From positions 1 to 64,000 of the forward strand of contig NZ_JAGEPF010000012.1 in the NCBI RefSeq assembly GCF_017573465.1: a DNA stretch of 64,000 nt, in the 5' to 3' direction. Of this stretch, positions 1,375 to 62,075 are shown piece after piece. How positions within the stretch are numbered: position 1 is the first letter of the stretch; each line of letters begins with the position of its first letter. The notes below the pieces were generated by a model, which ran no database searches, was not told the origin of the DNA, and saw nothing but the letters and a program-made list of their open reading frames with translations. The position numbers and the translations under genes are program-made. Source of the stretch: Actinomadura violacea (GTDB lineage Bacteria > Actinomycetota > Actinomycetes > Streptosporangiales > Streptosporangiaceae).

Positions 1375-2076
1375 GTGCCCGTCGTGATCCCCGGCGTGAC
1401 GCCGTCTCAGGAACTACGCGAACAACTCCGCGGCAAGCGCGTCCTGCTGTCCTTCAGCCGCGGCAAGGACTCGATCGCCGCCTGGCTGGCGCTACGCGAC
1501 GCTGGCGTGGAGGTCATCCCGTATCACCTGTACCTCGTGCCCGGCCTGGCGTTCGTCCGCGAGTCGCTGGAGTACTTCGCCGAGCACTTCGGGTTGGATC
1601 GGCCGATCTTGGACCTGCCGCACCCGACGCTCTACCGGTGGCTCAACGAGCTGATCTACCAGCCGCCCGAGCGGTGCGCAGTGATCGAGGCTGCGCAGCT
1701 CCCCAACCCGTCCTACCAGGACATCAACGACTACGCCCGCCAGTACTACGACCTCCCCGAGGACACCTGGGTGTGCGACGGCGTCCGCGCGACCGACTCG
1801 CCGAACAGGCGGATGGCGATCAAGTCCTACGGGCCGATCAACGAGAAGATGCGCACGCAGAAGGTCGTGTGGGACTGGCGGGTCACCGACGTCCGCGCGG
1901 CCATCGACCGGCACGGAGTCCGCCTTCCGCCCGACTACCTGTGGTTCGGCCGGTCATTCGACGGGCTGGACCTGCGGTTCATCGCCAAGCTCCGCACCTA
2001 CGCGCCCGAAGACTACGAGCGCGTCCTCCAGTGGTTCCCTCTCGCACCCTTGGACTCCATCCGTGCCCCTGTCTGA
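1375..2076 (+). CDS. PP-loop ATPase of the PAPS reductase family
   Basis: A 233-residue protein with a PP-loop near residue 28 (LSFSRGKDS), the ATP-pyrophosphatase signature of PAPS reductases and related adenylating enzymes. Phages often carry such genes; substrates are mostly unknown, and roles in DNA or tRNA base modification are proposed for some relatives. It is too short and lacks the context for a sulfate-assimilation enzyme, so nucleic-acid modification is an inference. GTG start at 1375. Its last 14 bases overlap the next gene, so the two are probably translated together and may act as a pair. Confidence 0.75.
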   Translation: MPVVIPGVTPSQELREQLRGKRVLLSFSRGKDSIAAWLALRDAGVEVIPYHLYLVPGLAFVRESLEYFAEHFGLDRPILDLPHPTLYRWLNELIYQPPERCAVIEAAQLPNPSYQDINDYARQYYDLPEDTWVCDGVRATDSPNRRMAIKSYGPINEKMRTQKVVWDWRVTDVRAAIDRHGVRLPPDYLWFGRSFDGLDLRFIAKLRTYAPEDYERVLQWFPLAPLDSIRAPV

Positions 2077-7414: not shown

Positions 7415-9046
7415 ATGACGATCGATGTTTGGCCGCCCCCCGAGCTCGCCGACATCCACGACCGCATGGCGATCTGGGCTGCCTGGTGGAGCGGTGAACC
7501 TGACGACCTCGAAGCGGTTTACGCCGGCACCGGCATTGCGTCGGTCCGGCCGCCGAACTGGCTGCGCCGGCGCCCGCTCAATCGGCCGAGCCAGTACAAG
7601 GGCGGGATCGTCGGTGCGCTCGCCCGAATGTTCTGGGGTCGACCCGTCTCCGAGGGGGAGCTTCGGGCGAAGCTGCATCTGCCGATCGCTTCCGACATCT
7701 CGGTGGTCTCGGCGAACCTGCTGTTCGCCGATCCGCTGACGCTCAAGACGCCGGACAAGGCGACCACCGAGCGGCTTCAGCAGTTCCAGGACGACGGGAT
7801 GCAAGCCACCCTGCGGGAGGCGGCCGAGACCGCGTCCGCGCTCGGCGGCGTGTACCTGCGCACCTCGTGGGACAAGGCGATCTCCGACCGGCCGTGGCTC
7901 AGCGTCGTGCAGCCGGACTGCGCGATCCCGCGGTTCCGGTACGGGCGGCTCCGCGAGGTCACGTTCTGGACGGTGATCGAGGACGACGGCCAACAGCGCG
8001 TCGTCCGGCACCTGGAGACCCACCAGCCCGGCGTGATCCGCCACCAGGTGTACGTCGGCACCCCGACGACGCTGGGACGCCTCGCCCCGCTCGGCGACTT
8101 CGAGGACACCGAGCCGTTCGCCTCGCTCGTTCAGGACGGCGACGCAATCCCCACCGGGATCGACCTGCTGACGGCCGGTTACGTCCCGAACATCCGCCCG
8201 AACCGGATCTGGCGAACTTACCCGCCCGGCGTCAACCTCGGCCGTTCCGACTACCAGGGCGTTGAGGCCCTCATGGACTCCCTCGACGAGGTCTGGAGTA
8301 GCTGGATGCGCGACATCCGGCTCGGGAAGGCCCGCATCTTCGCCGACCGGGCGATGCTCGAATCCGAAGGCCGCGGGCAAGGCGCGTACCTCGACCTGGA
8401 CCGTGAGGCGTTCACGCCCGTCGACATCAACCCCATGTCCGGGCAGTCGATGATCAACGAGGTGCAGTTCTCGATCCGCGTCCAGGAGCACGAAGACTCC
8501 GCGCGAGCGCTGACCGAGGCGATCGTCCGGTCCGCCGGCTACAGCGCCCAGTCTTTCGGGCTGGTCGGCGACGTCGCGCTGACGGCCACCGAGGTCACGG
8601 CCCGCAAAGAGCAGTCGTTCCAGACCAAGGCCCACAAGATCACCTACGTGCGGCCGACGCTGGGGGACCTGTACCACGCGATGCTCGCCCTCGATGAGGC
8701 GGTCTGGAACAGGCGCGGCATCCGCCCCCAGGTCCCCGACATCGAGTGGCCACCTGGCATCACGCCCGACCCGGCCGACACCGCGCAGACCGTGTCGCTG
8801 CTGGTGTCGGCGCGCGCGGTGAGCCTCCAGACCCGCGTAGAGATGGTGCATCCGGACTGGGATGAGCCCCGCGTCGCCGAAGAGGTCAAACGCATCCAGG
8901 CCGAGAGTCCGTCCCCGCTCGACCAGGTCCCCGCGCCCGGCCCCTCCCCTCAGGAGCACGACGCCCGGCCCGCCGCGCAGGGCCTGGCGGAGCAGGACGC
9001 CGAGCGGCCCCTGCGTGAAGGCGACCGCGCCCCGGCGCACACCTGA
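7415..9046 (+). CDS. Phage portal protein (SPP1 gp6-like)
   Basis: A 543-residue protein forming the dodecameric vertex through which DNA enters the capsid. It follows the large terminase and precedes the scaffold and capsid, and its length is typical. A central acidic/aromatic core (AVWNRRGIRPQVPDIEWPPG) and a long disordered Pro/Ala/Glu-rich C-terminus are visible. ATG 7415 is preceded by GAGGGGG at seven bases. Confidence 0.85.
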   Translation: MTIDVWPPPELADIHDRMAIWAAWWSGEPDDLEAVYAGTGIASVRPPNWLRRRPLNRPSQYKGGIVGALARMFWGRPVSEGELRAKLHLPIASDISVVSANLLFADPLTLKTPDKATTERLQQFQDDGMQATLREAAETASALGGVYLRTSWDKAISDRPWLSVVQPDCAIPRFRYGRLREVTFWTVIEDDGQQRVVRHLETHQPGVIRHQVYVGTPTTLGRLAPLGDFEDTEPFASLVQDGDAIPTGIDLLTAGYVPNIRPNRIWRTYPPGVNLGRSDYQGVEALMDSLDEVWSSWMRDIRLGKARIFADRAMLESEGRGQGAYLDLDREAFTPVDINPMSGQSMINEVQFSIRVQEHEDSARALTEAIVRSAGYSAQSFGLVGDVALTATEVTARKEQSFQTKAHKITYVRPTLGDLYHAMLALDEAVWNRRGIRPQVPDIEWPPGITPDPADTAQTVSLLVSARAVSLQTRVEMVHPDWDEPRVAEEVKRIQAESPSPLDQVPAPGPSPQEHDARPAAQGLAEQDAERPLREGDRAPAHT

Positions 9047-9153
9047 CGTTCCCCTTGCTCGTGGTCCGCCTGGTGCGGGCCCGCCACCTCATCACCCAGA
9101 GACCGGCCCGACTGGCGCGGGCCGGCGTCTCGCATGCCCTGGAGGCATTTCGC

Positions 9154-10083
9154 ATGAACGACAAGGACCAGTCGGCGCTGAACCTGCCCGACGTGTCCAC
9201 CCTCCCCGTCCACGACCACACGGGCCTGCGCGCCCTCGCCGTGCTGCCCTCGGGCCGCATCGTGTGGCCGGTCCAGGGCGGTGCCCCCGACGACTCCGAG
9301 AAGACCGGCGACAGCGGCCACGACGACCAAGGCGACGGCCGCGACGACGACCATGACGACGACGGCGGAGACGGCCGGGACGACGGCGGGGACGACGACA
9401 CCGAAGAGGACGACGCCGACGACGACGGAGACGGAGACGGCAAGGAGAAGGCGCGGCGCCGCCGCGACCGCTACGGCCGCCGCGGCTCCGACGACAAGAC
9501 CGCCCGCACGATCGCCGCACTACGCGAGGACTTCAAGGGCGAGCGGTCCAAGCGGCAGGCCGCGGAGAAGAACACCGCCGCGCTGCAGAAGCAGATCGAC
9601 GACATGCAGGCCGCGCAGACCAAGCAGGCCGACGCGCTCGCCAAGGCCCTCGGTCTGAAGAAGGACGACGAGCCGCCCACCCCCGAGCAGCTCGCCAAGG
9701 ACTTCGACAAGCAGCTCAAGGCGGCGCAGGCCGACACCGACACCGAGCGGCAGCGCGCCGACACCGCCGAGGCCAACTGGCGCGAGGCCGCGATCCAGCT
9801 CGCGGTGTACCTGGCCGCCGACGACCACGACGCCAACGCCAAGGCGCTGCTGGACAGCGCCCGGTTCCTGAAGAAGGTCGCCGGGTTGGACCCGTCCGAC
9901 TCCGCCTTCGAGGACCAGATCGCCGAGGCGATCAAGAACGCTGTGGACGGCAACGAGCGGCTCCGCAAGCCCAAGCCCCGCGCCGCCGAGCGCTCCGGCG
10001 GCGAGATGAACACCGGCCCCAAGCCGAACCGCAAGCGCCCCGCCTCGATGTCCGAGGCCATCACCAACGCCTACGCCAAGTAG
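9154..10083 (+). CDS. Capsid scaffold protein
   Basis: A 309-residue, extremely acidic protein. Residues 45-95 are almost only Asp/Gly/Glu, followed by a basic patch (KEKARRRRDRYGRRG) and a long coiled coil (about residues 115-215) with KTARTIAALREDFKGE. Composition and position between portal and capsid identify it as scaffold. ATG 9154 is preceded by GGAGG; the open frame extends upstream but without support. Confidence 0.8.
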   Translation: MNDKDQSALNLPDVSTLPVHDHTGLRALAVLPSGRIVWPVQGGAPDDSEKTGDSGHDDQGDGRDDDHDDDGGDGRDDGGDDDTEEDDADDDGDGDGKEKARRRRDRYGRRGSDDKTARTIAALREDFKGERSKRQAAEKNTAALQKQIDDMQAAQTKQADALAKALGLKKDDEPPTPEQLAKDFDKQLKAAQADTDTERQRADTAEANWREAAIQLAVYLAADDHDANAKALLDSARFLKKVAGLDPSDSAFEDQIAEAIKNAVDGNERLRKPKPRAAERSGGEMNTGPKPNRKRPASMSEAITNAYAK

Positions 10084-10146
10084 CCCGCCCCTACCTCGCC
10101 GCGTAACCCCCTGGCGGTGCCTGGCGTGGACCGAAGGAGAACCTGA

Positions 10147-11208
10147 ATGCCCGTAACTCTCGCCCAGGCGCAGATCAACGCGGCCGACGACGTCGACTAC
10201 GCCGTGATCGACAACTTCCGGCGCTACAGCTGGCTGCTCGATCAGATGGTGTGGGACGACACGGTCACGCCCGGCACCGGCGGCGGCTCCAGCCTCACCT
10301 ACGCCTACACCCGGCTGATCGAGGCCGCGCCCGCGCAGTTCCGGCGGCTGAACACCGAGTACACGCCGGGGCAGGCCAGGCGCGCCCGGTTCTCGGTGGA
10401 CCTCAAGCCCCTCGGCGGCGCCGTGACGATCGACCGGGTCATCGCCCGGCTCGGCAACCCGGCCACGACCGAGGTCAACTTCCAGATGCAGCAGATGCTC
10501 GCCAGCACGCGGGGCCGGTTCCAGCAGGCCCTCATCCTCGGTGACCCGGCCACCGAGGAAGACGAGGACGGCTTCGAGGGCCTGGACCGCGCGCTGACGG
10601 GCACCGCCACCGAGTACTTCCCCGGCGGCGACGCTATGTACACCGACTGGACCACCGCGGCGGTCGACACCGCCGACAAGGCCCTCACCCGGCTGGACGA
10701 GCTGGACGACTTCCTGTCCCGCCTGGTGCCCTCCACGGTCGGCAGCGTCGACATCGGCGCGCCCGGCGCGCTCCCGCCCGGTGTCCGCGCGATCCTGGGC
10801 AACACCCGCTCGATCACGCGGCTGCGGTCCATGGCGCGCCGCGCCGGCCAGTACACCGCCACCAAGGACGACCTCGGCCGCGACATCGAGATGTACGGGC
10901 AGTGGACTCTGGTCGACGTCGGCGACCGGTTCGACGGCGCGTCCCCGATCATCCCGATCGAGTCCCGCGACCCCGACGGCGCCGGTGGCGGCGCGGCGGT
11001 GTCGGGCCTGACCGACATCTACGCCGTCTGCTTCGGCATGGACTCCTTCCACGGCGCCTCGATGGCGGGCGTGCCGCTGGTGGAGACCTGGCTGCCCGAC
11101 TACACCACCAGCGGCGCCGTGAAGTCCGGCGAGGTGGAGTTCGGGCCCGTGGCGCCGGTGCTGAAGAACACCAAGGCGGCGGGCGTTCTGCGGAACGTGA
11201 AGGTCTGA
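10147..11208 (+). CDS. Major capsid protein
   Basis: A 353-residue protein directly after the scaffold, with SD GAAGGAG and ATG 10147. Size and features fit an HK97-fold capsid subunit: an N-terminal arm, GDPATEEDEDGFEGL, a central receptor-like loop, and a conserved end PVLKNTKAAGVLRNVKV. No N-terminal prodomain is obvious, so the separate scaffold fits. Confidence 0.85.
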   Translation: MPVTLAQAQINAADDVDYAVIDNFRRYSWLLDQMVWDDTVTPGTGGGSSLTYAYTRLIEAAPAQFRRLNTEYTPGQARRARFSVDLKPLGGAVTIDRVIARLGNPATTEVNFQMQQMLASTRGRFQQALILGDPATEEDEDGFEGLDRALTGTATEYFPGGDAMYTDWTTAAVDTADKALTRLDELDDFLSRLVPSTVGSVDIGAPGALPPGVRAILGNTRSITRLRSMARRAGQYTATKDDLGRDIEMYGQWTLVDVGDRFDGASPIIPIESRDPDGAGGGAAVSGLTDIYAVCFGMDSFHGASMAGVPLVETWLPDYTTSGAVKSGEVEFGPVAPVLKNTKAAGVLRNVKV

Positions 11209-11211
11209 CCG

Positions 11212-11661
11212 ATGCGCTACGAGGTGCACACCCCGCTCAAGGGGTACAGCGGCACGGTCGCCGACGTGGTGTTCACCGGCGGCCGCGCCGTTGTCGATGG
11301 CAGCCAGCGCGCGGCGCTGGCCTACTTCCACCGCCACGGCTACGGAATCCTCCCGGTCGAGGCCGAACCGCTCGACTCCGGCGGCAGCGTCGCGGACGCG
11401 GCCGAGCCGGACCAGACCGCGCCCGATGAGGACGGCGACGAGAGCGACGGCGCCGGCCTCCCCGGCGAACCGGAGCCGCCCACGGCGACCGAGCAGGAGG
11501 CCGAGCGGCTGCCCAAGCCCGCCAAGAACGCTCCGGTCGCCGCATGGACCGCCTACACCGCGCAGCTCCTCGGCGTCACCGCCGACGACCTGGGCGGCAA
11601 GACCAAGGTCGAGCTGCAGGAGCTCGTCGCCGAGCACGAGAAGAAGGGCACCGACCAGTGA
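11212..11661 (+). CDS. Head protein with C-terminal HeH/SAP-like motif
   Basis: A 149-residue protein: about 50 N-terminal residues (MRYEVHTPLKGYSGTVADVV), an acidic disordered middle, and a C-terminal helix-extended-helix-like segment (LGVTADDLGGKTKVELQELV). The same kind of C-terminus ends the gene at 15558-15881, so two head/connector proteins of this phage may share a DNA- or protein-docking tail. It overlaps the next gene by GTGA. Confidence 0.65.
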   Translation: MRYEVHTPLKGYSGTVADVVFTGGRAVVDGSQRAALAYFHRHGYGILPVEAEPLDSGGSVADAAEPDQTAPDEDGDESDGAGLPGEPEPPTATEQEAERLPKPAKNAPVAAWTAYTAQLLGVTADDLGGKTKVELQELVAEHEKKGTDQ

Positions 11662-12242
11662 CGGTCCACGGCCGATACACCGGAGTCCTCGCCGACTCCC
11701 CGGTCTTCGACACCCCCTACAACGCCCTGCCCGGCGTCGACCGCGACAGCTTCGTGCGGACCAACATCCCGGTCTGGGCGGCCACTGCCGACCTGGACGC
11801 CGCGGCGTCCGGCGCTGCGATCGGCGTCCGGATCTGGCTGGCGCGCGGCGACGTCGTCACGAACCTGGCGTTCACCTCGGGCGCGACCGCCGCCGCCAAC
11901 CTCTCCCACTGGTGGCACGCCCTCTACGACCCGGACGGCCTACTGCTCGCGCAGACCGCCGACCAGGCCGCGGCGGGATGGGCGGCTGCCACGACCAAGC
12001 GGCTGCCGCTGAGCAAGCCGGTGAAGGCCGCGCGTGCGGGCTGGTACATCGCGGCGACCATGACCGCCGCCGCCACCGTGCAGACCCTCGCGGGCGCCGC
12101 GCCGCTCGCTGCGACAGCGGGCGTGCACACCGGCTCCAAGCCCGCCGGGGTCACCTTCGGCGCGGGCCTGACCGCCGCCGCACCCGCGGTCACCGGCGCG
12201 CAGGCCGCCGCCGCGAAGGTTCCGCTCGTCGTCGTCTCCTGA
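11658..12242 (+). CDS. Putative head decoration protein
   Basis: A 194-residue Ala/Thr-rich beta protein starting at GTG 11658, coupled to the previous stop. Repeated short beta segments (RTNIPVWAATADLDAAA; AGVHTGSKPAGVTFGAGL) suggest a surface or fibre-type fold. The position after capsid and head genes suggests decoration. No catalytic motif. Confidence 0.6.
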   Translation: MTVHGRYTGVLADSPVFDTPYNALPGVDRDSFVRTNIPVWAATADLDAAASGAAIGVRIWLARGDVVTNLAFTSGATAAANLSHWWHALYDPDGLLLAQTADQAAAGWAAATTKRLPLSKPVKAARAGWYIAATMTAAATVQTLAGAAPLAATAGVHTGSKPAGVTFGAGLTAAAPAVTGAQAAAAKVPLVVVS

Positions 12243-41001: not shown

Positions 41002-41067
41002 GCCTCACCTCCCATGACTGCACACAAGGCCGCGCGCCGATGCGCCCGGCCCGAAAAGAGCTGCCCC

Positions 41068-41826
41068 ATGTCCTCCACCGTCCCGAACGCGCATCCTCCC
41101 TCGACCGCCGACAGCGTCCCCCGCTGGAAGGGCCGCCCGGTCCCATGGGTCGCGCAGTGGACCGGCGAAGTCCCCCGCAAGCCCCGCCCCGAGGTCCGCT
41201 ACGAGCCCGCGCCCGGCGGCGGCACGCGGCTGGCCTACTGGGACGCCACCGAAGCCGACTGGTGGGCGCCGACCGACAACCACGAGGCCATGCTCTGGCG
41301 ACGCACCGGCACCGGCCGCCAGGGCGAACCGCAGTACGCGATGCTCAACACCATTCGGCAGCGCCAGGCGATGACCGAGCTGCTGTGCCAGGTGTGCGGG
41401 CAGTCTGCGGACACGGCGGGCGGAACGGCGTGGCTCATGCACAGCATCGAATGGCAGATCCTCACCGGCGGACGCGGCGGCAGCGACCCCTTCTGGGCGC
41501 AGGCGGTCACCGGCCCGGACGGCATGACGCCGGCGACGACGAACCCCCCGACGTGCGCGTCATGCTGGCGGACGGCGTCCCGGATGTGCCCGAGCATCCG
41601 CAAGCACGGCGCCGTGGCGCTCGTCGTGGGCGCCGCCCGCCCCGTAGCCGTGACCGGCGACGTGTTCCCGGCGGGAGCGGGTATCCCCGAACCGCGCCGG
41701 GTGAACTTCGGCGACGAGGACGCGAACCGGACGATCGCGCGGCTACTGGTCGTGGAACTGGACGATGTCCAGGTGCTTCCCAACCTCAGCGCGCTGCCCG
41801 TTGAGCCGCGAACGAGTACGTCGTGA
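41068..41826 (+). CDS. Conserved actinomycete phage/plasmid protein with Cys motifs
   Basis: A 252-residue protein (ATG 41068; an in-frame ATG at 41014 lacks a ribosome site). It contains LLCQVCGQSADTAGG and PPTCASCWRTASRMCPSIRK, a probable zinc-binding core, and a C-terminal beta part. Related proteins are frequent in Streptomyces genomes and mobile elements; function unknown. Confidence 0.65.
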   Translation: MSSTVPNAHPPSTADSVPRWKGRPVPWVAQWTGEVPRKPRPEVRYEPAPGGGTRLAYWDATEADWWAPTDNHEAMLWRRTGTGRQGEPQYAMLNTIRQRQAMTELLCQVCGQSADTAGGTAWLMHSIEWQILTGGRGGSDPFWAQAVTGPDGMTPATTNPPTCASCWRTASRMCPSIRKHGAVALVVGAARPVAVTGDVFPAGAGIPEPRRVNFGDEDANRTIARLLVVELDDVQVLPNLSALPVEPRTSTS

Positions 41827-42793: not shown

Positions 42794-43645
42794 TCATGGG
42801 AGGAACAGGACGCCGCCGTACTCGTAAGCCTCCGGGGTCAGCTTGGATGCGCCCTCCCACTCGGCCAGGTCGGCAGGGATGGGAGGCAGCTTCGGCTCGA
42901 ACGGGTCGGGCCTCCACTCCTGCACATTCACCAAGCCCGGCTCGACCACCTCCAGACCGTCGAGCATCGCGTCCACCTGCTGAGGTGTGCGGTTCTGCCA
43001 CGGGATGCCGGCCGCGTTGAAGGTGTCGGCCATCTGGCGGCCGCGGTGCGCGTTCTCGTCCACGGCTTGGGAGAAGGCGAGGTAGTTGATGCGCGGCCCG
43101 GCCATGAGCAGAGCGTCGATGAGGAAACGGGGATGCCCGTCGTCGTCGCGGAGGTGGTGGCCGACCGAGAACATCAGGATGGCGTAGGGCTCGTTGAAGT
43201 CGATGAGCCGCCGGGTCTGCGGGTCGTTCAGGACCGCGTTCGGGTCGCGCATGTCGGCGGTGATGATGGCGGTGGTGGTGGCGTCGTCGGCCAGCAGCGC
43301 CCGACCGTGCGCGAGGACAAGGGGGTCGGTGTCGACGTACACCACTCGCGCGTTCGGGTCGATGTTCTGCGCGACCTGGTGGACGTTGTTGTCGGTGGGT
43401 AGTCCGCAGCCCAGGTCGATGAACTGCCGCACGCCGTGCTCGGCCGCCAGGTGGCGGACGGCCCGGCCCAGGAACCGGCGGTTGGCCCGGGAGGAGTCCA
43501 GGTTGGCGGGGAAGCGCTGGAGGATCTCCACGACCATGTCCCGGTCGACCTGGTAGTTGTCTTTGCCGCCGAGCATCCAGCCGTAGCCGCGCGCCGATGA
43601 GGGGAGGTCGGTGGTGAAGGTCTGGACGGCGGTGGGGTCGGTCAC
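42794..43645 (-). CDS. SAM-dependent methyltransferase, DUF574/Methyltransf_19 type
   Basis: A 283-residue protein. RGYGWMLGGKDNYQVDRDMV and RQFIDLGCGLPTDNNVHQVA (SAM site), VVYVDTDPLVLAHGRALL, and ITADMRDP are diagnostic for this large actinomycete family, whose substrates are unknown. GTG 43645 is chosen for its GAGGAG site; a longer frame reaches 43699. A second member lies at 46637-47464. First gene of the cargo block. Confidence 0.85.
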   Translation of the reverse strand: MTDPTAVQTFTTDLPSSARGYGWMLGGKDNYQVDRDMVVEILQRFPANLDSSRANRRFLGRAVRHLAAEHGVRQFIDLGCGLPTDNNVHQVAQNIDPNARVVYVDTDPLVLAHGRALLADDATTTAIITADMRDPNAVLNDPQTRRLIDFNEPYAILMFSVGHHLRDDDGHPRFLIDALLMAGPRINYLAFSQAVDENAHRGRQMADTFNAAGIPWQNRTPQQVDAMLDGLEVVEPGLVNVQEWRPDPFEPKLPPIPADLAEWEGASKLTPEAYEYGGVLFLP

Positions 43646-43712
43646 GGAAGGCTCCTCACGAGGGTTGCCGAACGCAGTCGCTGACGGGGGATGGGACACC
43701 GGGGGCGTGGAG

Positions 43713-46636: not shown

Positions 46637-47464
46637 CTAAGGCTTCATACCTACCCCGCCGACCGCGTCCATGGCTTGTGGCGCACCTGGTTCGCCAAGG
46701 TCGGGGCGCCACAACGGGAGGGGGACGATACCTGGCTCTACCACCTGCAGGCCGTCGAAGAACTGTGCGATCTGCTGAGGGCTGCGAAGGCGGTAGGGCA
46801 CGGCGCCGGTGTCGTCGTAACTCTGCTGCGCGCGGTTGAACGCCTCGTTGGTGTTGACGCCGTCGTTGAGGGCGAGGTAGCTCCCCGAGGGAAGGGCATC
46901 CAGCAAACCTGACACGATGGCTCGTGCCTCATCGTGCTCGGTGACGTGGCCTAGCACTCCCATGAACAGCAGCCCAACGGGCTGCGCGAAGTCCAGCAGC
47001 CCGGCCGCCTCTGCCAGGATCCGCTGAGGATCACGCATGTCGGCGTTGATGTAGTGGGTGGCGCCTTCTGGGGCACCGACGAGTAGCGCGTTAGCGTGGG
47101 CTAGCACCAACGGGTCGTTGTCGACGTAGACGATCCGGCAGTCCGCTGCGAGCCTCTGAGCGACTTGGTGCGTGTTGTCTTCGGTTGGTAGGCCAGTGCC
47201 GACGTCGAGGAACTGTCGGACGCCGGCCTCGCTGACCAGGTACTGGATGGCCCTGCCGAGGAATGCGCGTTCAGACTTCGCCAAGTCGAAGATTCCGGGG
47301 AACAGTTCGGCATACTGGTTCCCGGCTTCCTGATCAACGGCGAAGTTGTCCTTGCCTCCGAGCCAGTAGTTCCAGATCCGCGCCGAATGAGGGACGCTGG
47401 TGTCGATTCCGTGACTCAGATCTTTGTTCGCGTGCGCTAGGAACTCTTCGGCGTCGCTCGCCAT
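46637..47464 (-). CDS. SAM-dependent methyltransferase, DUF574 type, second copy
   Basis: A 275-residue protein with the family pattern ARIWNYWLGGKDNFAVDQEA, RQFLDVGTGLPTEDNTHQVA, VDNDPLVLAHANALL and INADMRDP. Diverged from the copy at 42794. Convergent with the 2H gene, and followed upstream by the XRE/DUF5753 gene on the same strand, an arrangement often seen in Streptomyces. Confidence 0.85.
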   Translation of the reverse strand: MASDAEEFLAHANKDLSHGIDTSVPHSARIWNYWLGGKDNFAVDQEAGNQYAELFPGIFDLAKSERAFLGRAIQYLVSEAGVRQFLDVGTGLPTEDNTHQVAQRLAADCRIVYVDNDPLVLAHANALLVGAPEGATHYINADMRDPQRILAEAAGLLDFAQPVGLLFMGVLGHVTEHDEARAIVSGLLDALPSGSYLALNDGVNTNEAFNRAQQSYDDTGAVPYRLRSPQQIAQFFDGLQVVEPGIVPLPLWRPDLGEPGAPQAMDAVGGVGMKP

Positions 47465-55015: not shown

Positions 55016-55327
55016 TCAGGCGACGGACCGCGCGGCGGCCATGTGGTAGCAGCGGCGGCCGTACCTGCCTGCCTTGCAGGTGCAGGAGGTCGCGGTGGTG
55101 GCGTAGATGTACGCGCCGTCCTTGGAGACGGTGCGGTACTCGCCGGGCGCGACCTGGATGATGCCGCCGTCGCTGATCAGCTCGTCGGCGTCGTCGAGCT
55201 GCTGGGCGCTGAATCGAAGGCGGGGGTTGAAGACCAGCGTCTTCATCGTGCAGAGCACGCAGCTCCGGTGCCGGTGCCGGGGGCGGGCCCGTAGCGGGCG
55301 GACGCAGCGGGGGCAGTAGCCCCGCAT
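55016..55327 (-). CDS. Zinc-ribbon plus SWIM-finger mini-protein
   Basis: A 103-residue protein. The N-terminus has two Cys pairs (YCPRCVRPL; HRSCVLCTM); the C-terminus has SCTCKAGRYGRRCYHMAAAR, the CxC...CxH pattern of SWIM fingers, which bind DNA or proteins. ATG 55327 (GGAG six bases upstream) is preferred; in-frame ATG 55339 lies one base after the leader stop. First gene of the P5 unit. Confidence 0.7.
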   Translation of the reverse strand: MRGYCPRCVRPLRARPRHRHRSCVLCTMKTLVFNPRLRFSAQQLDDADELISDGGIIQVAPGEYRTVSKDGAYIYATTATSCTCKAGRYGRRCYHMAAARSVA

Positions 55328-55340
55328 GGCGATCTCCATC

Positions 55341-55370
55341 TCAGATCCAATCGATTTGCTGTGCTGACAT
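55341..55370 (-). CDS. Leader peptide 5, MSAQQIDWI
   Basis: Nine codons from five bases after the -10 of P5, stopping at TGA one base before ATG 55339. Differs from the other leaders at residue 6 (Ile for Thr). Confidence 0.4.
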   Translation of the reverse strand: MSAQQIDWI

Positions 55371-55408
55371 GAGAAAGGCTAGCCACCTCTGACACTTCCG
55401 TCAACACA
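55371..55408 (-). promoter_or_regulatory. Leader-type promoter P5
   Basis: Minus strand: TGTGTTGACG (55408-55399, -35 TTGACG), 17-base spacer, -10 TAGCCT (55381-55376), five bases to ATG. Divergent from P6. Confidence 0.65.
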
Positions 55409-55532: not shown

Positions 55533-55569
55533 TGTGTTGACAGTGGATGCCGCCCGCCCTAGGCTTCAC
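55533..55569 (+). promoter_or_regulatory. Leader-type promoter P6
   Basis: TGTGTTGACA (55533-55542, -35 TTGACA 55537-55542), 17-base spacer, -10 TAGGCT (55560-55565), four bases to ATG. The 125 bases between P5 and P6 contain CAGGGCCG and related G+C-rich words. Confidence 0.7.
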
Positions 55570-55593
55570 ATGTCAGCACAGCAAACCGACTAG
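55570..55593 (+). CDS. Leader peptide 6, MSAQQTD
   Basis: Seven codons then TAG, the shortest leader. Here 74 bases separate the stop from the first gene, so direct coupling is not possible; this argues that the conserved word has a role beyond coupling. Confidence 0.4.
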   Translation: MSAQQTD

Positions 55594-55667: not shown

Positions 55668-56639
55668 GTGCACGCCACGGTGGACAGCGCCGCGTTCGCC
55701 GACGCGGTAACCCGCACCGTCCAAGTCCTAGACAAGAAACCCGCGCACCCGGTCCTCAGTGGCCTACTTCTCCAGGTCCGCCGCGGCCACCTGCACATCA
55801 TCGGCGCCGGCTACGGCGAGGCGAGCCACACGAAGGTGCGCGCGTTCGGCCACCGGGCCGGCCGCGCAGTGGCGCCCGGCAACCAGCTAGCCGCGATCGC
55901 CCGGCATCTCGGAGCCGACACCGTCACCCTGTCGCTCCGCAACGGCAGGCTCGCGATCGTCAGCGGTGCGACGACCTGGAAGCTGATGACCATGCCGGTC
56001 GAGGATTACCCCACCTGGCCCGACGAGGTCATCGCCGAGCACGGAAACCACGCCGACCACGCCAAACGGCAGCCACCGGGCAAGTGGGAGCACCGCATGG
56101 TTCGGGCCGAACGCACCATTCGCCACATCACCGCAGGGTTCCGCCCATCCCGGACACGCACTCTGTACGAGCCCGAGCCATTCGCGGTCGGCGACTGGGT
56201 CACCGTCACCACCGACGACGACCGGACGTTGACCGGCCAGATGGCCGCCGAGAACGTGGTGATCTTGCTGCATGAAGACGGGACGACCACATGCCATACG
56301 GTCCTGTCCATCTTCAAGCCCAAGTACGCGCGGTACCACATCCGCCACCAGCTTGACGAGGAAGCCATGGCTCGCCGCGACAGCGACGAACCGATCTGGA
56401 AGGTGTGGGACGTACGACGTGCCGCCGGTCCCCCGGATCAGGCGCCTGTCGCTACTTCTGAATTGGGTCGGGACGAGGCCACATCCGCACCGGATGGGGC
56501 ACCACCGGACGCCGCTCCACCGGAGGAATCTCCGGCACCCGCACCGTCCCCCTCCGCGCCCGTCGCCTTCGAGTTGCCCGACCCGTTCGAGTGGCGCTGG
56601 CCCGACTTCGACCCCGCTGACCTGGCGGTGTCCGAATGA
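55668..56639 (+). CDS. Sliding-clamp-like protein (DnaN domain 1 only)
   Basis: A 323-residue protein from GTG 55668 (GAGGAGG upstream). Residues 3-125 follow the first domain of DNA polymerase III beta: FADAVTRTVQVLDKKPAHPV then LSGLLLQV, HIIGAGYGEASHTKVRAF, LAAIARHLGADTVTLSLRNG, LMTMPVEDYPTWP. Domains 2 and 3 of a normal clamp (about 370 residues) are missing; the rest holds a small beta part (FAVGDWVTVTTDDDRTLTGQ) and a Pro-rich acidic tail. It may bind polymerase or block host clamp partners. Confidence 0.65.
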   Translation: MHATVDSAAFADAVTRTVQVLDKKPAHPVLSGLLLQVRRGHLHIIGAGYGEASHTKVRAFGHRAGRAVAPGNQLAAIARHLGADTVTLSLRNGRLAIVSGATTWKLMTMPVEDYPTWPDEVIAEHGNHADHAKRQPPGKWEHRMVRAERTIRHITAGFRPSRTRTLYEPEPFAVGDWVTVTTDDDRTLTGQMAAENVVILLHEDGTTTCHTVLSIFKPKYARYHIRHQLDEEAMARRDSDEPIWKVWDVRRAAGPPDQAPVATSELGRDEATSAPDGAPPDAAPPEESPAPAPSPSAPVAFELPDPFEWRWPDFDPADLAVSE

Positions 56640-57241: not shown

Positions 57242-58387
57242 TCAACGTCCATGCTGGCCTAGCGGTTGGCGACGGAGTTGCGTCACTCGGCCGGGCCTCG
57301 GACCAGTGGCGGGGCCTGTCGGCGCGGGGGTAGGCGCGATCGATCTGAGGATCGCTGGGGGAATCGCCAGTTCATCCGAGGCCAACCGATACGGTTTGTC
57401 TCCGTATCGCTGCGACAGCAGCTTCCACAGCAGCAGCGGGTGTTCGTGCCCGACTGTGACTGGTTCCTCCTTCCGCCAGCCGCGATGGTTGAGCTGTACG
57501 AACAGCGACTGTCGGCGGGGTTCGTCGATCGCGTCTACTGCTGCCGCTCGCATGATGAGCGCCTGTATCGATACCCCCCAAGCAGCCTTTTTGTGAGCGA
57601 GGCTGGTCAACGTCAACCGCCCTGCGAACTCCTCTACCGCACGCTGGTAGGGCAGGAGGAACGCCCCGGCGAACTGGTGCGCCTCCCGCTCAGGATCGGC
57701 GCATCGTGGCCGGAACGTGTGCAGAACCAGGTGGCCGAGTTCATGAGCGAGGGTGAATCGGTCCCGGTCCCCTGAACCAGTGAAGTAGCCGATGAGCGCG
57801 GCCTCGCCCGGCCCTCCCCAGTACGAAACACCGAAGTGCTTGCCTGAGGTGATCGGCGTTTCCCCTCCAGGTCCAGTGAGGCTGATGGGTGCGACCGCGA
57901 CCCCTGCGCGCTCGAGCGCCCGCGTTAGGTGGGGAACCGGCTTGTCGGGAGCCAGGCGCAGCGCCTCCCGGGTCGCCATGGCGAGAGTTTCGATCTGTTC
58001 CTGGTCAAGCTCGTCCTCGGTGGCAAAGGGCAACGGTGGCGCCGGGTAGGTGTCCTGCACCAGTTGTTCGGTAACCCGGTAGCTCTCCCCGTATAGCGCA
58101 TGTATCCGCTTGGTCATCTTCTTGCTGGCGGAAGCGGTCTTACGGAACCGCAGCGAGTCCAATGGCACCGTCGATGGGCTGACATCGAAGAACTTCACCG
58201 GTGTGCCGGTAGCGTCGGCGATCAGTTCGAGCATGCCGGGGCCGGGGTCGCCGTCGTTGTTCTCCAGCTTGGAGATCCATGCCTGGCTCACACCTGACAA
58301 CCTCGACAGCTCGATTTGTGTCAGCCCGAACAGTTCTCGCAGGGTCCGTAGCCGTTCACCCGCCGAGGCCGTCAGCACTCTCGACAC
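57242..58387 (-). CDS. XRE-ImmA/IrrE-type metallopeptidase
   Basis: A 381-residue fusion. Residues 8-62 are an XRE helix-turn-helix (LRTLRELFGLTQIELSRLSG, VSQAWISKLEN); residues 170-290 contain FTLAHELGHLVLH, the HExxH zinc site of ImmA/IrrE (M78) peptidases, and HQFAGAFLLP. Such proteins cleave phage or ICE repressors. GTG 58387 overlaps the 3' end of the upstream gene by 32 bases. Next to integrase, excisionase and a candidate repressor, so a switch role is likely. Confidence 0.85.
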   Translation of the reverse strand: MSRVLTASAGERLRTLRELFGLTQIELSRLSGVSQAWISKLENNDGDPGPGMLELIADATGTPVKFFDVSPSTVPLDSLRFRKTASASKKMTKRIHALYGESYRVTEQLVQDTYPAPPLPFATEDELDQEQIETLAMATREALRLAPDKPVPHLTRALERAGVAVAPISLTGPGGETPITSGKHFGVSYWGGPGEAALIGYFTGSGDRDRFTLAHELGHLVLHTFRPRCADPEREAHQFAGAFLLPYQRAVEEFAGRLTLTSLAHKKAAWGVSIQALIMRAAAVDAIDEPRRQSLFVQLNHRGWRKEEPVTVGHEHPLLLWKLLSQRYGDKPYRLASDELAIPPAILRSIAPTPAPTGPATGPRPGRVTQLRRQPLGQHGR

Positions 58388-58994
58388 CGTTCTCTTCTGC
58401 GGGAAGCTGGAGTTCCAGCTCGTCATCGGCCGGCTCGAATGCCAGCGTGGCCAGATCGTCGGCCTGCCTGGGCAGCATGAAGTCCAGGTCGACCTTCTCG
58501 GTCTTGCCGAACTTCCAGGTGCCGATCGTTCGCACGACACGGAAAGCGGGGGCCCCGGTGCTCGCACTGATGCGCCACAGCACTAGCAGCCGGTCGTTGG
58601 GCGGCCCGAACAGCGGCACCTGCGAGTCCAGCCGGGGGTTGGAGTAGTACGCGCGGCGGCTGAGGTTGGTGCCGGGCGGCGGGACCTGCTCGTCCGATAG
58701 CCCGTGCAGGATACGGATGCGGTAGTTCCCGTCAGTGAGCCAGAGCTCGCCGTTGCGCGCGTGGTTGCCGTACAGAGCCCAGTCGCCGAGCGCGCCGGGG
58801 CCGATCCTGCTCATCTCGTAGTGAGCGAAGCCCCGGATGCAGTGCGTGCCCAGCCACTTGTACTGAGGAACGTCCAGCATCGGTAGGCGGTTACGCCGCA
58901 GCGTTTCCGCGGTCGTGAACACGTCGTGGAGGGGCTCACAGAGCGGCATCATCGCCTGACGCACCCGGTCAGCCTCAGCCTCAAGGTTCCTCAT
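58356..58994 (-). CDS. Partner of the ImmA-type protein, unknown function
   Basis: A 212-residue protein (LEAEADRVRQAMMPLCEPLH; DVPQYKWLGTHCIRGFAHYE; GTWKFGKTEKVDLDFMLPRQ). No family recognised. ATG 58994 lies seven bases after TATTAT, so a leaderless start is plausible; ATG 59015 is the alternative. Its A+T-rich start region with GTGATATTATTAC is unlike its neighbours and could be an operator. Overlaps the peptidase gene, so the two are one functional unit. Confidence 0.65.
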   Translation of the reverse strand: MRNLEAEADRVRQAMMPLCEPLHDVFTTAETLRRNRLPMLDVPQYKWLGTHCIRGFAHYEMSRIGPGALGDWALYGNHARNGELWLTDGNYRIRILHGLSDEQVPPPGTNLSRRAYYSNPRLDSQVPLFGPPNDRLLVLWRISASTGAPAFRVVRTIGTWKFGKTEKVDLDFMLPRQADDLATLAFEPADDELELQLPAEENGVESADGLGG

Positions 58995-59145
58995 GTCAGT
59001 AATAATATCACCCATGATCTTTATGTTCGAGGAGGCGCACCGGGCCACCAGGTGAGGGGCCGCGACGCCAGGACGCATGCTGGCCCGAGCACGCACTGAC
59101 CCCGGCCACCCGCTCCGCGTGCAGCACACCAGCCGCATGCTCAGC

Positions 59146-59397
59146 TCAGGTAGTGCCCGCGCCGACCTCGGCACGCGACTGATCCGAGGCGACGCCGTAC
59201 AGCAGGCGGATCAGGTCCTGCGTCGGGATCCTGATCCTGCGGCCCAGACGCAGCACGCGAGTGCTGTCCCAGGCGTCGCGGCGGATCAGGTCGTAGACGG
59301 TCCAGGAACCGATGCCCAGGACGGACGCGGCCGTGGGCACGTCGGTGGTGGGGCCGAGCGCCGCGATGCGCTCGCGACTCCATGTCGCGTTGTTCAA
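59146..59397 (-). CDS. xis: Excisionase-like HTH protein
   Basis: An 83-residue protein of the MerR/excisionase type (VPTAASVLGIGSWTVYDLIR, RRIRIPTQDLIRLLYG). TTG 59397 follows AGGA by eight bases. Adjacent to the integrase cluster and divergent from the XRE regulator, as expected for a recombination directionality factor. Confidence 0.75.
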   Translation of the reverse strand: MNNATWSRERIAALGPTTDVPTAASVLGIGSWTVYDLIRRDAWDSTRVLRLGRRIRIPTQDLIRLLYGVASDQSRAEVGAGTT

Positions 59398-59528: not shown

Positions 59529-59534
59529 GTCGGT

Positions 59535-60131
59535 GTGACACGGAATGATTGGCCGAGTGCCCTCGCCACCTCCATCGCCGAACAGGTCCGCCGCTACCGC
59601 AAGGACCGCGGCCTCAGCGCCCAGCAACTCGCCGATGCCTGCACCGCACTGGGCATGGAGACCTCACGCTCGGCGATCGCCAACTTCGAGTCCGGCCGCC
59701 GCCCGACCATCAGCGTCGCGGAGCTTCTGATCTTCGCCCACGCCCTACGCGTGCCGCCGCTCCTGCTCGTCGTGCCGGTCGGCGCCGATCAGTCCGTCCA
59801 ACTTGCGCCCGGCGTCGCCACGTCGGCGTGGGACGCCGCCCAGTGGTTCGCCGGCCTCGGCCGCGACGCCGGCGACAACCCGATCCGCCTCTTCCAGCGC
59901 CACGACCGCTTCGTCAGCGAGTACGAGTTCGCCGCCCGCAGGTCCGCCGGAGCCCGGTCCATGCTGCAGGACGCTGACGGGGACCGCCGCGAGGCGCACG
60001 CTGCGACCGCCCACGCCGCCGACCAGGCCGCGCGGCTCGCTGAAGAAGTCATCGACGAGATCCGCGACGACATCCGGGCGCTCGGCCTCACCCCGCCCGC
60101 GCTCCCAGCCGAGCTGGCACACCTGCCCTAA
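59535..60131 (+). CDS. XRE-family regulator, candidate prophage repressor
   Basis: A 198-residue protein from GTG 59535. Residues 10-75 are an XRE helix-turn-helix (IAEQVRRYRKDRGLSAQQLA, SRSAIANFESGRRPTISVAE); the rest is helical with a charged coiled coil at the end. Position between excisionase and integrase fits an immunity or integration regulator. The frame is open upstream to 59382, but promoter geometry supports the GTG. Confidence 0.7.
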   Translation: MTRNDWPSALATSIAEQVRRYRKDRGLSAQQLADACTALGMETSRSAIANFESGRRPTISVAELLIFAHALRVPPLLLVVPVGADQSVQLAPGVATSAWDAAQWFAGLGRDAGDNPIRLFQRHDRFVSEYEFAARRSAGARSMLQDADGDRREAHAATAHAADQAARLAEEVIDEIRDDIRALGLTPPALPAELAHLP

Positions 60132-60239: not shown

Positions 60240-61862
60240 GTGAAGCCCTTCAAAAGGTGCTGGTGCCGCGACGCCGCGGGCAAGCTGCTCGGTAAGAAGT
60301 GCCCTGATCTGGCCAAGCGTGGGCACGGCAAGTGGTACGGCCGCTACGAGGCCCCTGCCGGTGCAGATGGGAAACGCCGACAGCCCACGATCGGCCCTTA
60401 CGACACCGAAAAGGAATGCAAGCGCGCACTGGGGGAGGCCGTTGGAGCGGCAGGTAGCGGTGACATCGCCGAAGACCGCAAGATCACGGTGGGTGAGTAC
60501 CTGGAGCGTCGGCATGGGTGGCGAGTCTCCGAATCGACAAGTGCGGGGGAGGGGCTCAAGAAGTCGACCCTCAATACGGACCGGGAACTCATAGATCTCT
60601 ACCTCAAGCCAGGGCTCGGTCACCTCAAACTGGCCGACCTGCGTGACGGCCATATCCGCGACTTGTACGCCGCCATGCGGCAGATCAACCGGCTGCCGGA
60701 AGGGGAGAAGCCGAACGAGTTGCTACGCAGGCTCCTGCTGGTTCGCGCCGCTAGGACGGGCGGCAAGGCGTACTCAACCAAGCCGCTTTCTGAGGCGCGG
60801 ATCAAGCGGGTGCACATCTGCCTGAACGCGGCGCTCAACGACGCGGTCAGGGTCTCCAAGATCCTGCGGTCTAACCCCGCCGTGTCGATCTTCAAGACCA
60901 AGGGAGGAAGCGGCGGCCGCAAGGTCCGCGCGAAGCCGCTGCTGTGGACCGATGAACGTGTCGCGCACTGGGAGAAGACCGGCGAGGTCCCCGCCAAGGT
61001 GATGGTGTGGACCCCCATGCAGGCCGGATGGTTCCTTGACTTCGCCGAATCCAGCCGCCTCTACCCCCTGCTGCACCTGGCAACCTACTGGGGCTTGCGC
61101 CGCGGAGAACTCATCGGTCAGGCATGGGCGGATGCCGATCTGTCCAAGAGCACGCTCCACGTTCGCCGGGCCCAGCAGGATGACGAGCTGGACGACGTGA
61201 AGTCCGACGCCTCTGACCGCACCATCACCCTCGACCGCGGCACCGTCGACGTCCTGACCAACTGGCGCCAGATGCAGCAAGCGGAGCGAGAGGCGTGGAA
61301 GGAAGGCTGGGCGGAGTCCGGGCGGATGTTTACTCAGGAGGACGGCCGCGAGATGACGCCTAAGTCGCTCACCGACCACTTCGCTCGCCTGGTCCGCCGC
61401 TACTCCGCCATCCGCCGGCACCACGCCGAAGGCTGGAGCATCGAGATGATCGTCAAGCGTTCGCGGGTCTCGCCGCACGAAGTGGAAGTCGCGCTCGCCG
61501 GTCCTCCGCTGCCGCCCGTGCGTTTTCACGACCTTCGTCACGGTGCAGCCACGATGCTGCACGCGGCAGGTGTGTCGATGAAGGTGGTGTCCGACATCCT
61601 TGGGCACTCATCCGAGTCCTTCACCTCCGATGTGTACGCCGTGGTGGCGCAGGAGTTGGCGCACGACGCGGCTGTGCGGATCGCCGACTTCATCCCACGT
61701 CGGAACAGGCAGAAGGGGCCGGTCGTCGAGCCGGTGCACATCGCTTGCGACCAGGCGATGCTTGCACGGCTGCGCACGCTTCAACGGCCCGGTGAGGACC
61801 TCTCGGCGGTGGCTGCCCGGGTGATTCGTGGCCTCCTAGGAGGGGCTGAAACGGCGGCGTGA
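60240..61862 (+). CDS. int: Tyrosine integrase
   Basis: A 540-residue site-specific recombinase. An N-terminal arm-binding/AP2-like region (WYGRYEAPAGADGKRRQPTI) and a core-binding domain precede the catalytic domain with Arg in LATYWGLRRGELIG, the HxxR box in FHDLRHGAATMLHAAGVSMK, and LGHSSESFTSDVYA holding the His and Tyr. It should insert the phage at the tRNA-Arg gene 140 bases downstream. Confidence 0.92.
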   Translation: MKPFKRCWCRDAAGKLLGKKCPDLAKRGHGKWYGRYEAPAGADGKRRQPTIGPYDTEKECKRALGEAVGAAGSGDIAEDRKITVGEYLERRHGWRVSESTSAGEGLKKSTLNTDRELIDLYLKPGLGHLKLADLRDGHIRDLYAAMRQINRLPEGEKPNELLRRLLLVRAARTGGKAYSTKPLSEARIKRVHICLNAALNDAVRVSKILRSNPAVSIFKTKGGSGGRKVRAKPLLWTDERVAHWEKTGEVPAKVMVWTPMQAGWFLDFAESSRLYPLLHLATYWGLRRGELIGQAWADADLSKSTLHVRRAQQDDELDDVKSDASDRTITLDRGTVDVLTNWRQMQQAEREAWKEGWAESGRMFTQEDGREMTPKSLTDHFARLVRRYSAIRRHHAEGWSIEMIVKRSRVSPHEVEVALAGPPLPPVRFHDLRHGAATMLHAAGVSMKVVSDILGHSSESFTSDVYAVVAQELAHDAAVRIADFIPRRNRQKGPVVEPVHIACDQAMLARLRTLQRPGEDLSAVAARVIRGLLGGAETAA

Positions 61863-61974: not shown

Positions 61975-62002
61975 TCCGCTGGCCAGCGCGTTGTGCTTTC
62001 GG

Positions 62003-62075
62003 CGCCCCCGGCAGGATTCGAACCTGCGACACCCGCTTTAGGAGAGCGGTGCTCTATCCCCTGAGCTACGGAGGC
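62003..62075 (-). tRNA. tRNA-Arg (anticodon CCU); prophage attachment site
   Basis: Folds as a full cloverleaf: 7-bp acceptor (GCCTCCG with CGGGGGC, one G-U), D-arm GCTC/GAGC, anticodon arm CCGCT/AGCGG with loop CTCCTAA giving CCU, T-arm GCAGG/CCTGC with TTCGAAT, discriminator G. The 3' end faces the integrase, so the phage crossover is expected in the 3' half, which it restores. No second copy of that half was found in the window. Confidence 0.93.

Follow-up and report, generated by a model that had tools for sequence, protein, structure and literature searches.

A sliding clamp, as described in PMC9690074, is a six-domain ring that consists either of two chains with three domains each or of three chains with two. 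The phage T4 protein gp45 and PCNA resemble the protein considered here in having fewer domains per chain than the β clamp (PMC9690074); they differ from it in that they are trimers of two-domain chains, whereas here there is one clamp domain per chain. The clamp loader is reported to contact domain I of the clamp (PMC11139829). Phage Twort Gp168 also targets the clamp of its host at a site other than the peptide pocket; it binds in the DNA channel, and its description in PMC11139829 mentions no clamp domain. Clamp genes are also carried by other actinobacterial mobile elements, namely Arthrobacter phage Persistence, Streptomyces pFRL1 and a Thermobispora bispora plasmid, but the products differ from ours in being annotated at 358, 372 and 374 amino acids and in having domain II matches. 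In E. coli, a shortened clamp protein, β*, keeps the C-terminal part and is without domain I. Titles and the starts of abstracts in the open-licence literature yielded no one-domain clamp. Short clamp-like chains are present in BFVD (A0A6J5L0N7, 123 amino acids; A0A6G8RAZ0, 150; A0A8S5ULD0, 187; A0A8S5M0E1, 188; A0A3G3LZ33, 200; G9FGZ4, 266) as fold matches to the model described below at 9–13% identity, and may be partial genes; G9FGZ4 (phage REQ2) fits by length gp51, which the record calls RusA-like and whose frame has an HMM E of 0.022. These entries suggest that shortened viral clamps may be commoner than one case.

Here we describe a gene of Actinomadura violacea whose product, judged by its sequence, holds a clamp domain yet does not show the three domains by which DnaN is recognized. 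Its parts, numbered along the window (the whole stretch of 64,000 nucleotides that was analysed), are as follows.

55668–56639, forward strand: one-domain clamp protein, 323 amino acids, GTG start (from the ORF list; the start matches aligned relatives)
55668–56018, forward strand: DnaN domain I, residues 1–117 (PF00712, E 2e-16; fold match with Z 21.4, 1.2 Å, 122 residues)
56163–56423, forward strand: predicted small β-barrel, residues 166–252, with the motif YEPxxFxVGDWVT...GQ (strands of the model; motif also in clamp-less proteins)
56424–56567, forward strand: acidic linker rich in proline and alanine, residues 253–300 (net charge –7; low pLDDT)
56574–56612, forward strand: peptide near the C-terminus, LPDPFEWRWPDFD, residues 303–315 (8 of 13 residues identical in A. 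rudentiformis)

The sequence GGAGG lies directly 5′ of the GTG start. The initial annotation had described about 120 residues like DnaN domain I, an unrelated β part and an acidic, proline-rich tail, with two clamp domains missing, and this architecture is borne out. In Pfam at E ≤ 1 the sole family is PF00712 (60.7 bits; cutoff 24.4), the whole-clamp model TIGR00663 matches residues 2–120 alone (51.2 bits, below its cutoff of 137.65), and positions 3–127 of the 368 of PHROG 947 (processivity factor) align with residues 1–125; neither Pfam at E ≤ 1 nor TIGR00663 found domains II and III. AlphaFold2 places six strands between residues 177 and 251, the tail has the composition and charge listed above, and the C-terminal peptide is a feature beyond those annotated before. 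Since the domains that form it are missing, the canonical peptide-binding pocket is, on the sequence, absent from the protein. PADLOC gave no match for it.

The AlphaFold2 model has a pLDDT of about 90 over residues 1–130 and is of low confidence from residue 262 on. Rather than a different fold, the domain I model shows one that matches solved clamps, the best being 8djq (Z 21.4, 1.2 Å over 122 residues); because the input alignment included three ordinary clamp domain I rows, the fold match and the sequence match do not count as independent evidence. With a profile built from the three one-domain proteins described below and three clamp domain I rows, six sequences in all, the search found 54 distinct PDB sequences at E ≤ 0.001, all of them named as β clamp or as a fusion with one. 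The likeness to DnaN (β) thus lies in the sequence of domain I (E 2e-16), which is about 40% identical to host clamps, and in its predicted fold (1.2 Å over 122 residues).

Clamp matches were obtained in all 65 genomes of the genus that were searched. Besides the genome of A. violacea itself, three gave a match well beyond domain I: G041 (residues 2–316), G059 (4–193) and G044 (5–162). The last is an ordinary dnaN with a frameshift, its domain II match being in another frame, and was rejected; A. rudentiformis (G041) and A. syzygii (G059) are therefore the two of 65 genomes with a relative that matches beyond domain I. Their proteins are 41% and 33% identical, respectively, to that of the window, with 51/117 and 42/116 residues identical over domain I, about level with the identity to host clamps (40%). 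The proteins of L054 and L055 are identical to those of G041:C7 and G059:C7. Short clamp frames in G009, G013, G045, G046, G047, G048 and G050 were set aside because they run into a contig end or end within about 110 bases of one, as were L056 and L057, which are longer clamps with domain II matches. With the C-terminal part as query, 14 of 341 family genomes matched at E ≤ 0.01, and clamp plus barrel occurred only in the genome of A. violacea, G041 and G059; the matches in G052, G017, G286, G119, G253, G161 and G121 were unrelated by eye. In IMG/VR no relative was confirmed with the protein, the protein alignment or the barrel alignment, in scans that need short conserved patterns and so can miss distant relatives. 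Matches were obtained in 45 phage and 38 plasmid records, never with 80% of the query covered at a single place, and the matches listed (40 of 45, and 38 of 38) were confined to residues 1–138. Of these records, H6 (unannotated) has a 378-residue frame with a domain II match, and H8, H41 and H46 are annotated clamps of 358–374 amino acids. Separately, 57 of the 65 genus genomes have exactly two clamp matches and A. violacea has two full-length clamps on contig C8; two dnaN genes seem to be usual in the genus.

The residue comparison and the tree used 40 rows, the three one-domain proteins and 37 others, with the second-frame row of G044 and exact duplicates left out. The 37 comparison clamps include the frameshifted G044 domain I and many near-identical sequences of the genus, and are not independent cases. 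In the tree the three one-domain proteins form one side of a branch with support of 95/83, to be read with the caveat that the long branches of L010 and L057 may have been grouped spuriously.

A siphovirus prophage sits at tRNA-Arg in this soil bacterium, and the window is its right arm; the earlier assignment of the clamp gene to a phage agrees with the structural and lysis PHROG matches, the integrase, the tRNA-Arg gene and the copies of the attachment site. The features around the clamp gene that matter below are these.

55016–55339, reverse strand: SWIM-like Cys-rich protein, 107 amino acids, the divergent neighbour (PF04434, 18.1 bits, just below the cutoff of 19.6)
55356–55404, reverse strand: divergent promoter/operator-like unit of the SWIM-like gene (matching layout in A. 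rudentiformis, L036:11455, reverse strand)
55537–55584, forward strand: promoter/operator-like unit of the clamp gene (TTGACA at 55537–55542, 17 nt, TAGGCT at 55560–55565, TGTCAGCACAGCAA at 55571–55584)
57242–58567, reverse strand: Xre-ImmA protein (HTH_3 and Peptidase_M78 over their cutoffs)
58356–59174, reverse strand: 272-residue gene paired with the Xre-ImmA gene (gene order as in ripA-ripB)
59146–59397, reverse strand: excisionase-like protein (TIGR01764, 24.4 bits, below the cutoff of 28.8)
59532–60131, forward strand: HTH protein, candidate regulator (PF13560, 37.2 bits, above the cutoff of 27)
60240–61862, forward strand: tyrosine integrase of the prophage (PF00589, E 3e-15; phrog_1, E 4e-56)
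61998–62044, no strand: 47-bp attachment core within the tRNA-Arg(CCT) gene at 62001–62075, reverse strand (tRNA call; exact second copy)

Genes were picked with our own base-composition script. A scan of ten proteins gave PHROG matches for terminase, portal, major head, tape measure, minor tail and endolysin. The exact second copy of the attachment core is at contig C28:78705–78751, from which, by its orientation, the other arm of the prophage is C28:78751–119703; from the two copies and the shared operator motif we infer that C28 and C3, the contig of the window, belong to one element. The C28 arm encodes an ATPase with a weak AAA_24 match. No DNA polymerase match was found among the proteins scanned from the C28 arm and the window, which are part of the ORFs, and this is in line with a phage that relies on the replisome of its host. 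Other cargo includes type I restriction-modification genes on the other arm (HsdM and HsdR matches, L069:6240–7814 and 9010–12084), a phosphoadenosine phosphosulfate reductase-like gene near the head genes (window 1375–2076, forward strand; phrog_2302, E 9.2e-30) and two SAM methyltransferase genes (PF04672; window 42794–43699 and 46637–47464, both reverse strand) with relatives in the A. rudentiformis stretch.

Within two mismatches, TGTCAGCACAGCAA occurs eight times in the window against 0.30 expected, a count reached by 0 of 100 shuffles; similar sites number one in L068 (reached by 12 of 200 shuffles) and two in L069 (2 of 200). At nine of these eleven sites TTGAC lies upstream at a promoter-like distance, giving units at window positions 1032, 40383, 40505, 50830, 55356 and 55571, at L068:14008 and at L069:16508 and 16757. 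One pair of these units points in opposite directions from the space between the clamp and SWIM-like genes, and the same pair separates the relatives of both genes in A. rudentiformis (L036:11718, forward strand, and 11455, reverse strand). In A. syzygii neither L037 nor L055 contains the exact sequence TGTCAGCACA, and a stricter promoter pattern returned two sites in 2 of 65 genomes while missing most of the known sites. The repeated unit is a candidate phage regulon, and the individual units would be repressed early promoters; that the clamp gene shares its unit with prophage genes and with the A. rudentiformis relative suggests that it is repressed in the lysogen and expressed early. Operator-like sites without TTGAC were also seen, at window 41907 and at L036:1331 (both reverse strand), downstream of related genes (window 41014–41826 and L036:504–1193); such a site is possibly a stoperator or an antisense site.

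As compared with DnaN, then, the protein is without domains II and III, has a barrel and a tail added, and carries R16, W104, A78 and H80, which occur in 0 of the 37 comparison clamps. Each is present in all three one-domain proteins. At position 16 the comparison clamps have W in 33 of 37 cases and R in none; at position 104 they have F in 36 and Y in one; A78 and H80 are each found in none. Position 77 is I, I and V in the three one-domain proteins. On a provisional mapping, we take positions 77 and 104 to correspond to E. coli I78 and F106. These two E. coli residues are described as stabilizing the clamp dimer interface (PMC11139829).

It is probable that the protein touches the host DNA-copying machinery, and we think that by itself it is not a processivity ring. 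Tentatively, and with a confidence short of even, we read it as an early adaptor whose retained domain I dimer edge would engage the host clamp or replisome and present the barrel and tail there. Domain I would keep the hydrophobic edge that pairs, in a normal clamp, with domain III of the other subunit; this edge would let it attach to the clamp loader or to a subunit of the host clamp, and the barrel and tail would thereby come to lie at the host replisome, where they may either draw the replisome to the DNA of the element or hold the host clamp open. On this reading the gene would be expressed on induction, and its product would dock on host DnaN and act by recruitment or poisoning. The adaptor reading draws on the single clamp domain, the clamp fold and the clamp-plus-barrel arrangement in three divergent proteins, as well as on W104 and I77 at putative interface positions, the contact of the loader with domain I, the absence of the pocket domains, the shared promoter/operator-like unit and the lack of a DNA polymerase match among the proteins scanned. 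Docking is favoured over self-assembly because, in the alignment, the dimer edge is kept and the domain II side is changed. Against this, the interface mapping is provisional, the exchange of F for W at position 104 can be a mere core change, and the A. syzygii relative lacks the tail peptide and lies near polymerase and primase matches. Domain I carries a net charge of +6, –8 and +1 in the respective one-domain proteins (mean of –5.1 in the 37 others), so that there is neither a shared charge pattern for one partner, which further weakens the adaptor reading, nor a shared basic DNA-binding signature.

The barrel is relevant to an alternative. Folded alone from three rows, it has a core pLDDT of about 73–85. 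Foldseek gave no match to structures at E ≤ 0.001, VIA none at Z ≥ 5 among 996 chains (best Z 4.9; below Z 5, Tudor, KOW and SH3-like barrels are mixed with unrelated rows), and the best E of the barrel profile against PDB sequences was 0.82. Proteins of G034, G047, G049 and G058 that have no clamp domain carry the motif YEPxxFxVGxWVT...GQ behind a Cys/His-rich stretch, and it is also seen in ORFs of G175 and G573; the barrel profile reached E ≤ 0.001 in 5 of 394 class genomes, where G175 and G573 show the motif and G472 is without it. The barrel matches are short, and homology among them is likely. The loci L041, L042, L043, L044 and L053 encode Actinomadura proteins without a clamp domain in which the barrel motif accompanies a Cys/His-rich stretch; that of L042 has no Pfam match. 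Further along, LPDPFEWRWPDFD recurs as LPEVFEFQWPDLD in A. rudentiformis, with 8 of 13 residues identical by our own count on the alignment, in which the peptide is absent from the A. syzygii relative.

Only slightly less likely than the adaptor, in our view, is that domain I is a recycled fold, serving solely to place the barrel by binding DNA or protein and having no clamp partner, the barrel being the working part. The motif in the clamp-less proteins and in the ORFs of G175 and G573 would fit this, as would position 48, where all 37 comparison clamps have D and the one-domain proteins G, G and N. The identity of about 40% to host clamps and the retained dimer-edge positions, however, exceed what a bare scaffold needs, and the shortness of the barrel matches also tells against it.

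It is unlikely that the protein forms a homo-hexameric sliding clamp, a ring of six one-domain chains beside those of two times three and three times two domains, or mixed rings with host DnaN. Such a ring is conceivable because clamp rings have six domains at any chain number (PMC9690074), and the setting of the A. syzygii gene is in keeping with it. That setting differs from the one in the window: a T4SS coupling protein gene (PF02534, E 4.5e-20) and SSB and RecJ-like genes are present, as are DNA polymerase (phrog_1252, E 2.1e-22) and primase (phrog_864, E 2.4e-63) matches and a UvrD-like helicase, and the genus clamp search gave no other clamp match on the contig of the relative. The A. 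syzygii protein could thus serve the element's own enzymes there. Two residues of the other domain I edge divide on the question: L21, which we place there by the same provisional mapping, is L in all three one-domain proteins, but R16, presumably near this edge, which would have to pack in a six-copy ring, replaces an aromatic residue in all three. The known peptide pocket would also remain missing from such a ring. The A. syzygii stretch has, in addition, an ORF of 1867 residues (L037:157–5760) with weak Pfam and PHROG matches to RNA polymerase β/β′, for which a single PDB match was obtained at E ≤ 0.1, to an entry named tape tail measure protein.

The initial annotation had also offered a decoy for host clamp-binding proteins. 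This is weakened, as the peptide pocket lies in the missing domains II and III (PMC12795458); domain I alone cannot offer it, and a decoy for clamp-binding peptides is unlikely for that reason. A variant is an antidote to a clamp-directed toxin, such as one from the neighbouring toxin–antitoxin pair; decoys of either kind we regard as very improbable. The Xre-ImmA gene and its 272-residue partner form a RosmerTA-like pair about 600 bp from the clamp gene, between it and the excisionase gene, and the Xre-ImmA protein is of the antitoxin type that is paired in pneumococcal ripA-ripB with RipA, a toxin acting on DnaN (PMC12795458). However, the substitutions in pneumococcal DnaN that are reported to suppress RipA (H183, L185, Y249, Y333 and L371) cluster in the domain II/III pocket, which is absent here (PMC12795458), and the toxins of such pairs are said to vary, one of them depolarizing membranes (PMC10440598). 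NF052239 (Spr1629-type antitoxin) scores the Xre-ImmA protein at 89.2 bits, far below its cutoff of 335, and gives below-cutoff matches in 12 of 14 control genomes, while Pfam, NCBIfam and PHROGs give no family for the 272-residue neighbour at E ≤ 1. Nor does the pair have a match in the A. rudentiformis stretch, which retains the clamp gene. In that stretch counterparts are present of the SWIM-like (68%), excisionase-like (62%), HTH (63%), integrase (50%) and clamp (35% by tblastn) genes, the clamp being the least alike of these five; the SWIM-like protein has no match in the A. syzygii genome. That the gene is a decayed or fused dnaN fragment without function is the least probable reading: its domain I is an ordinary clamp piece and domains II and III are lost, but it does not look like a broken dnaN, since the frame is open, one architecture recurs in three genomes at 33–41% identity with relatives beyond domain I in two of them, the three proteins form one clade, the C-terminal peptide recurs and a promoter/operator-like unit is common to two genomes.

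In Actinomadura the one-domain clamp gene is conserved in a lineage of integrating phages, and its A. syzygii relative lies in a stretch that bears conjugation genes. Since the product is a natural, conserved protein that has just one clamp domain, whether a single domain can close a ring becomes directly testable. If the docking on the host clamp proposed under the adaptor reading is true, the protein would be a phage tool acting on the clamp away from the peptide pocket, which is described as the focus of drug work directed at the clamp (PMC11139829).
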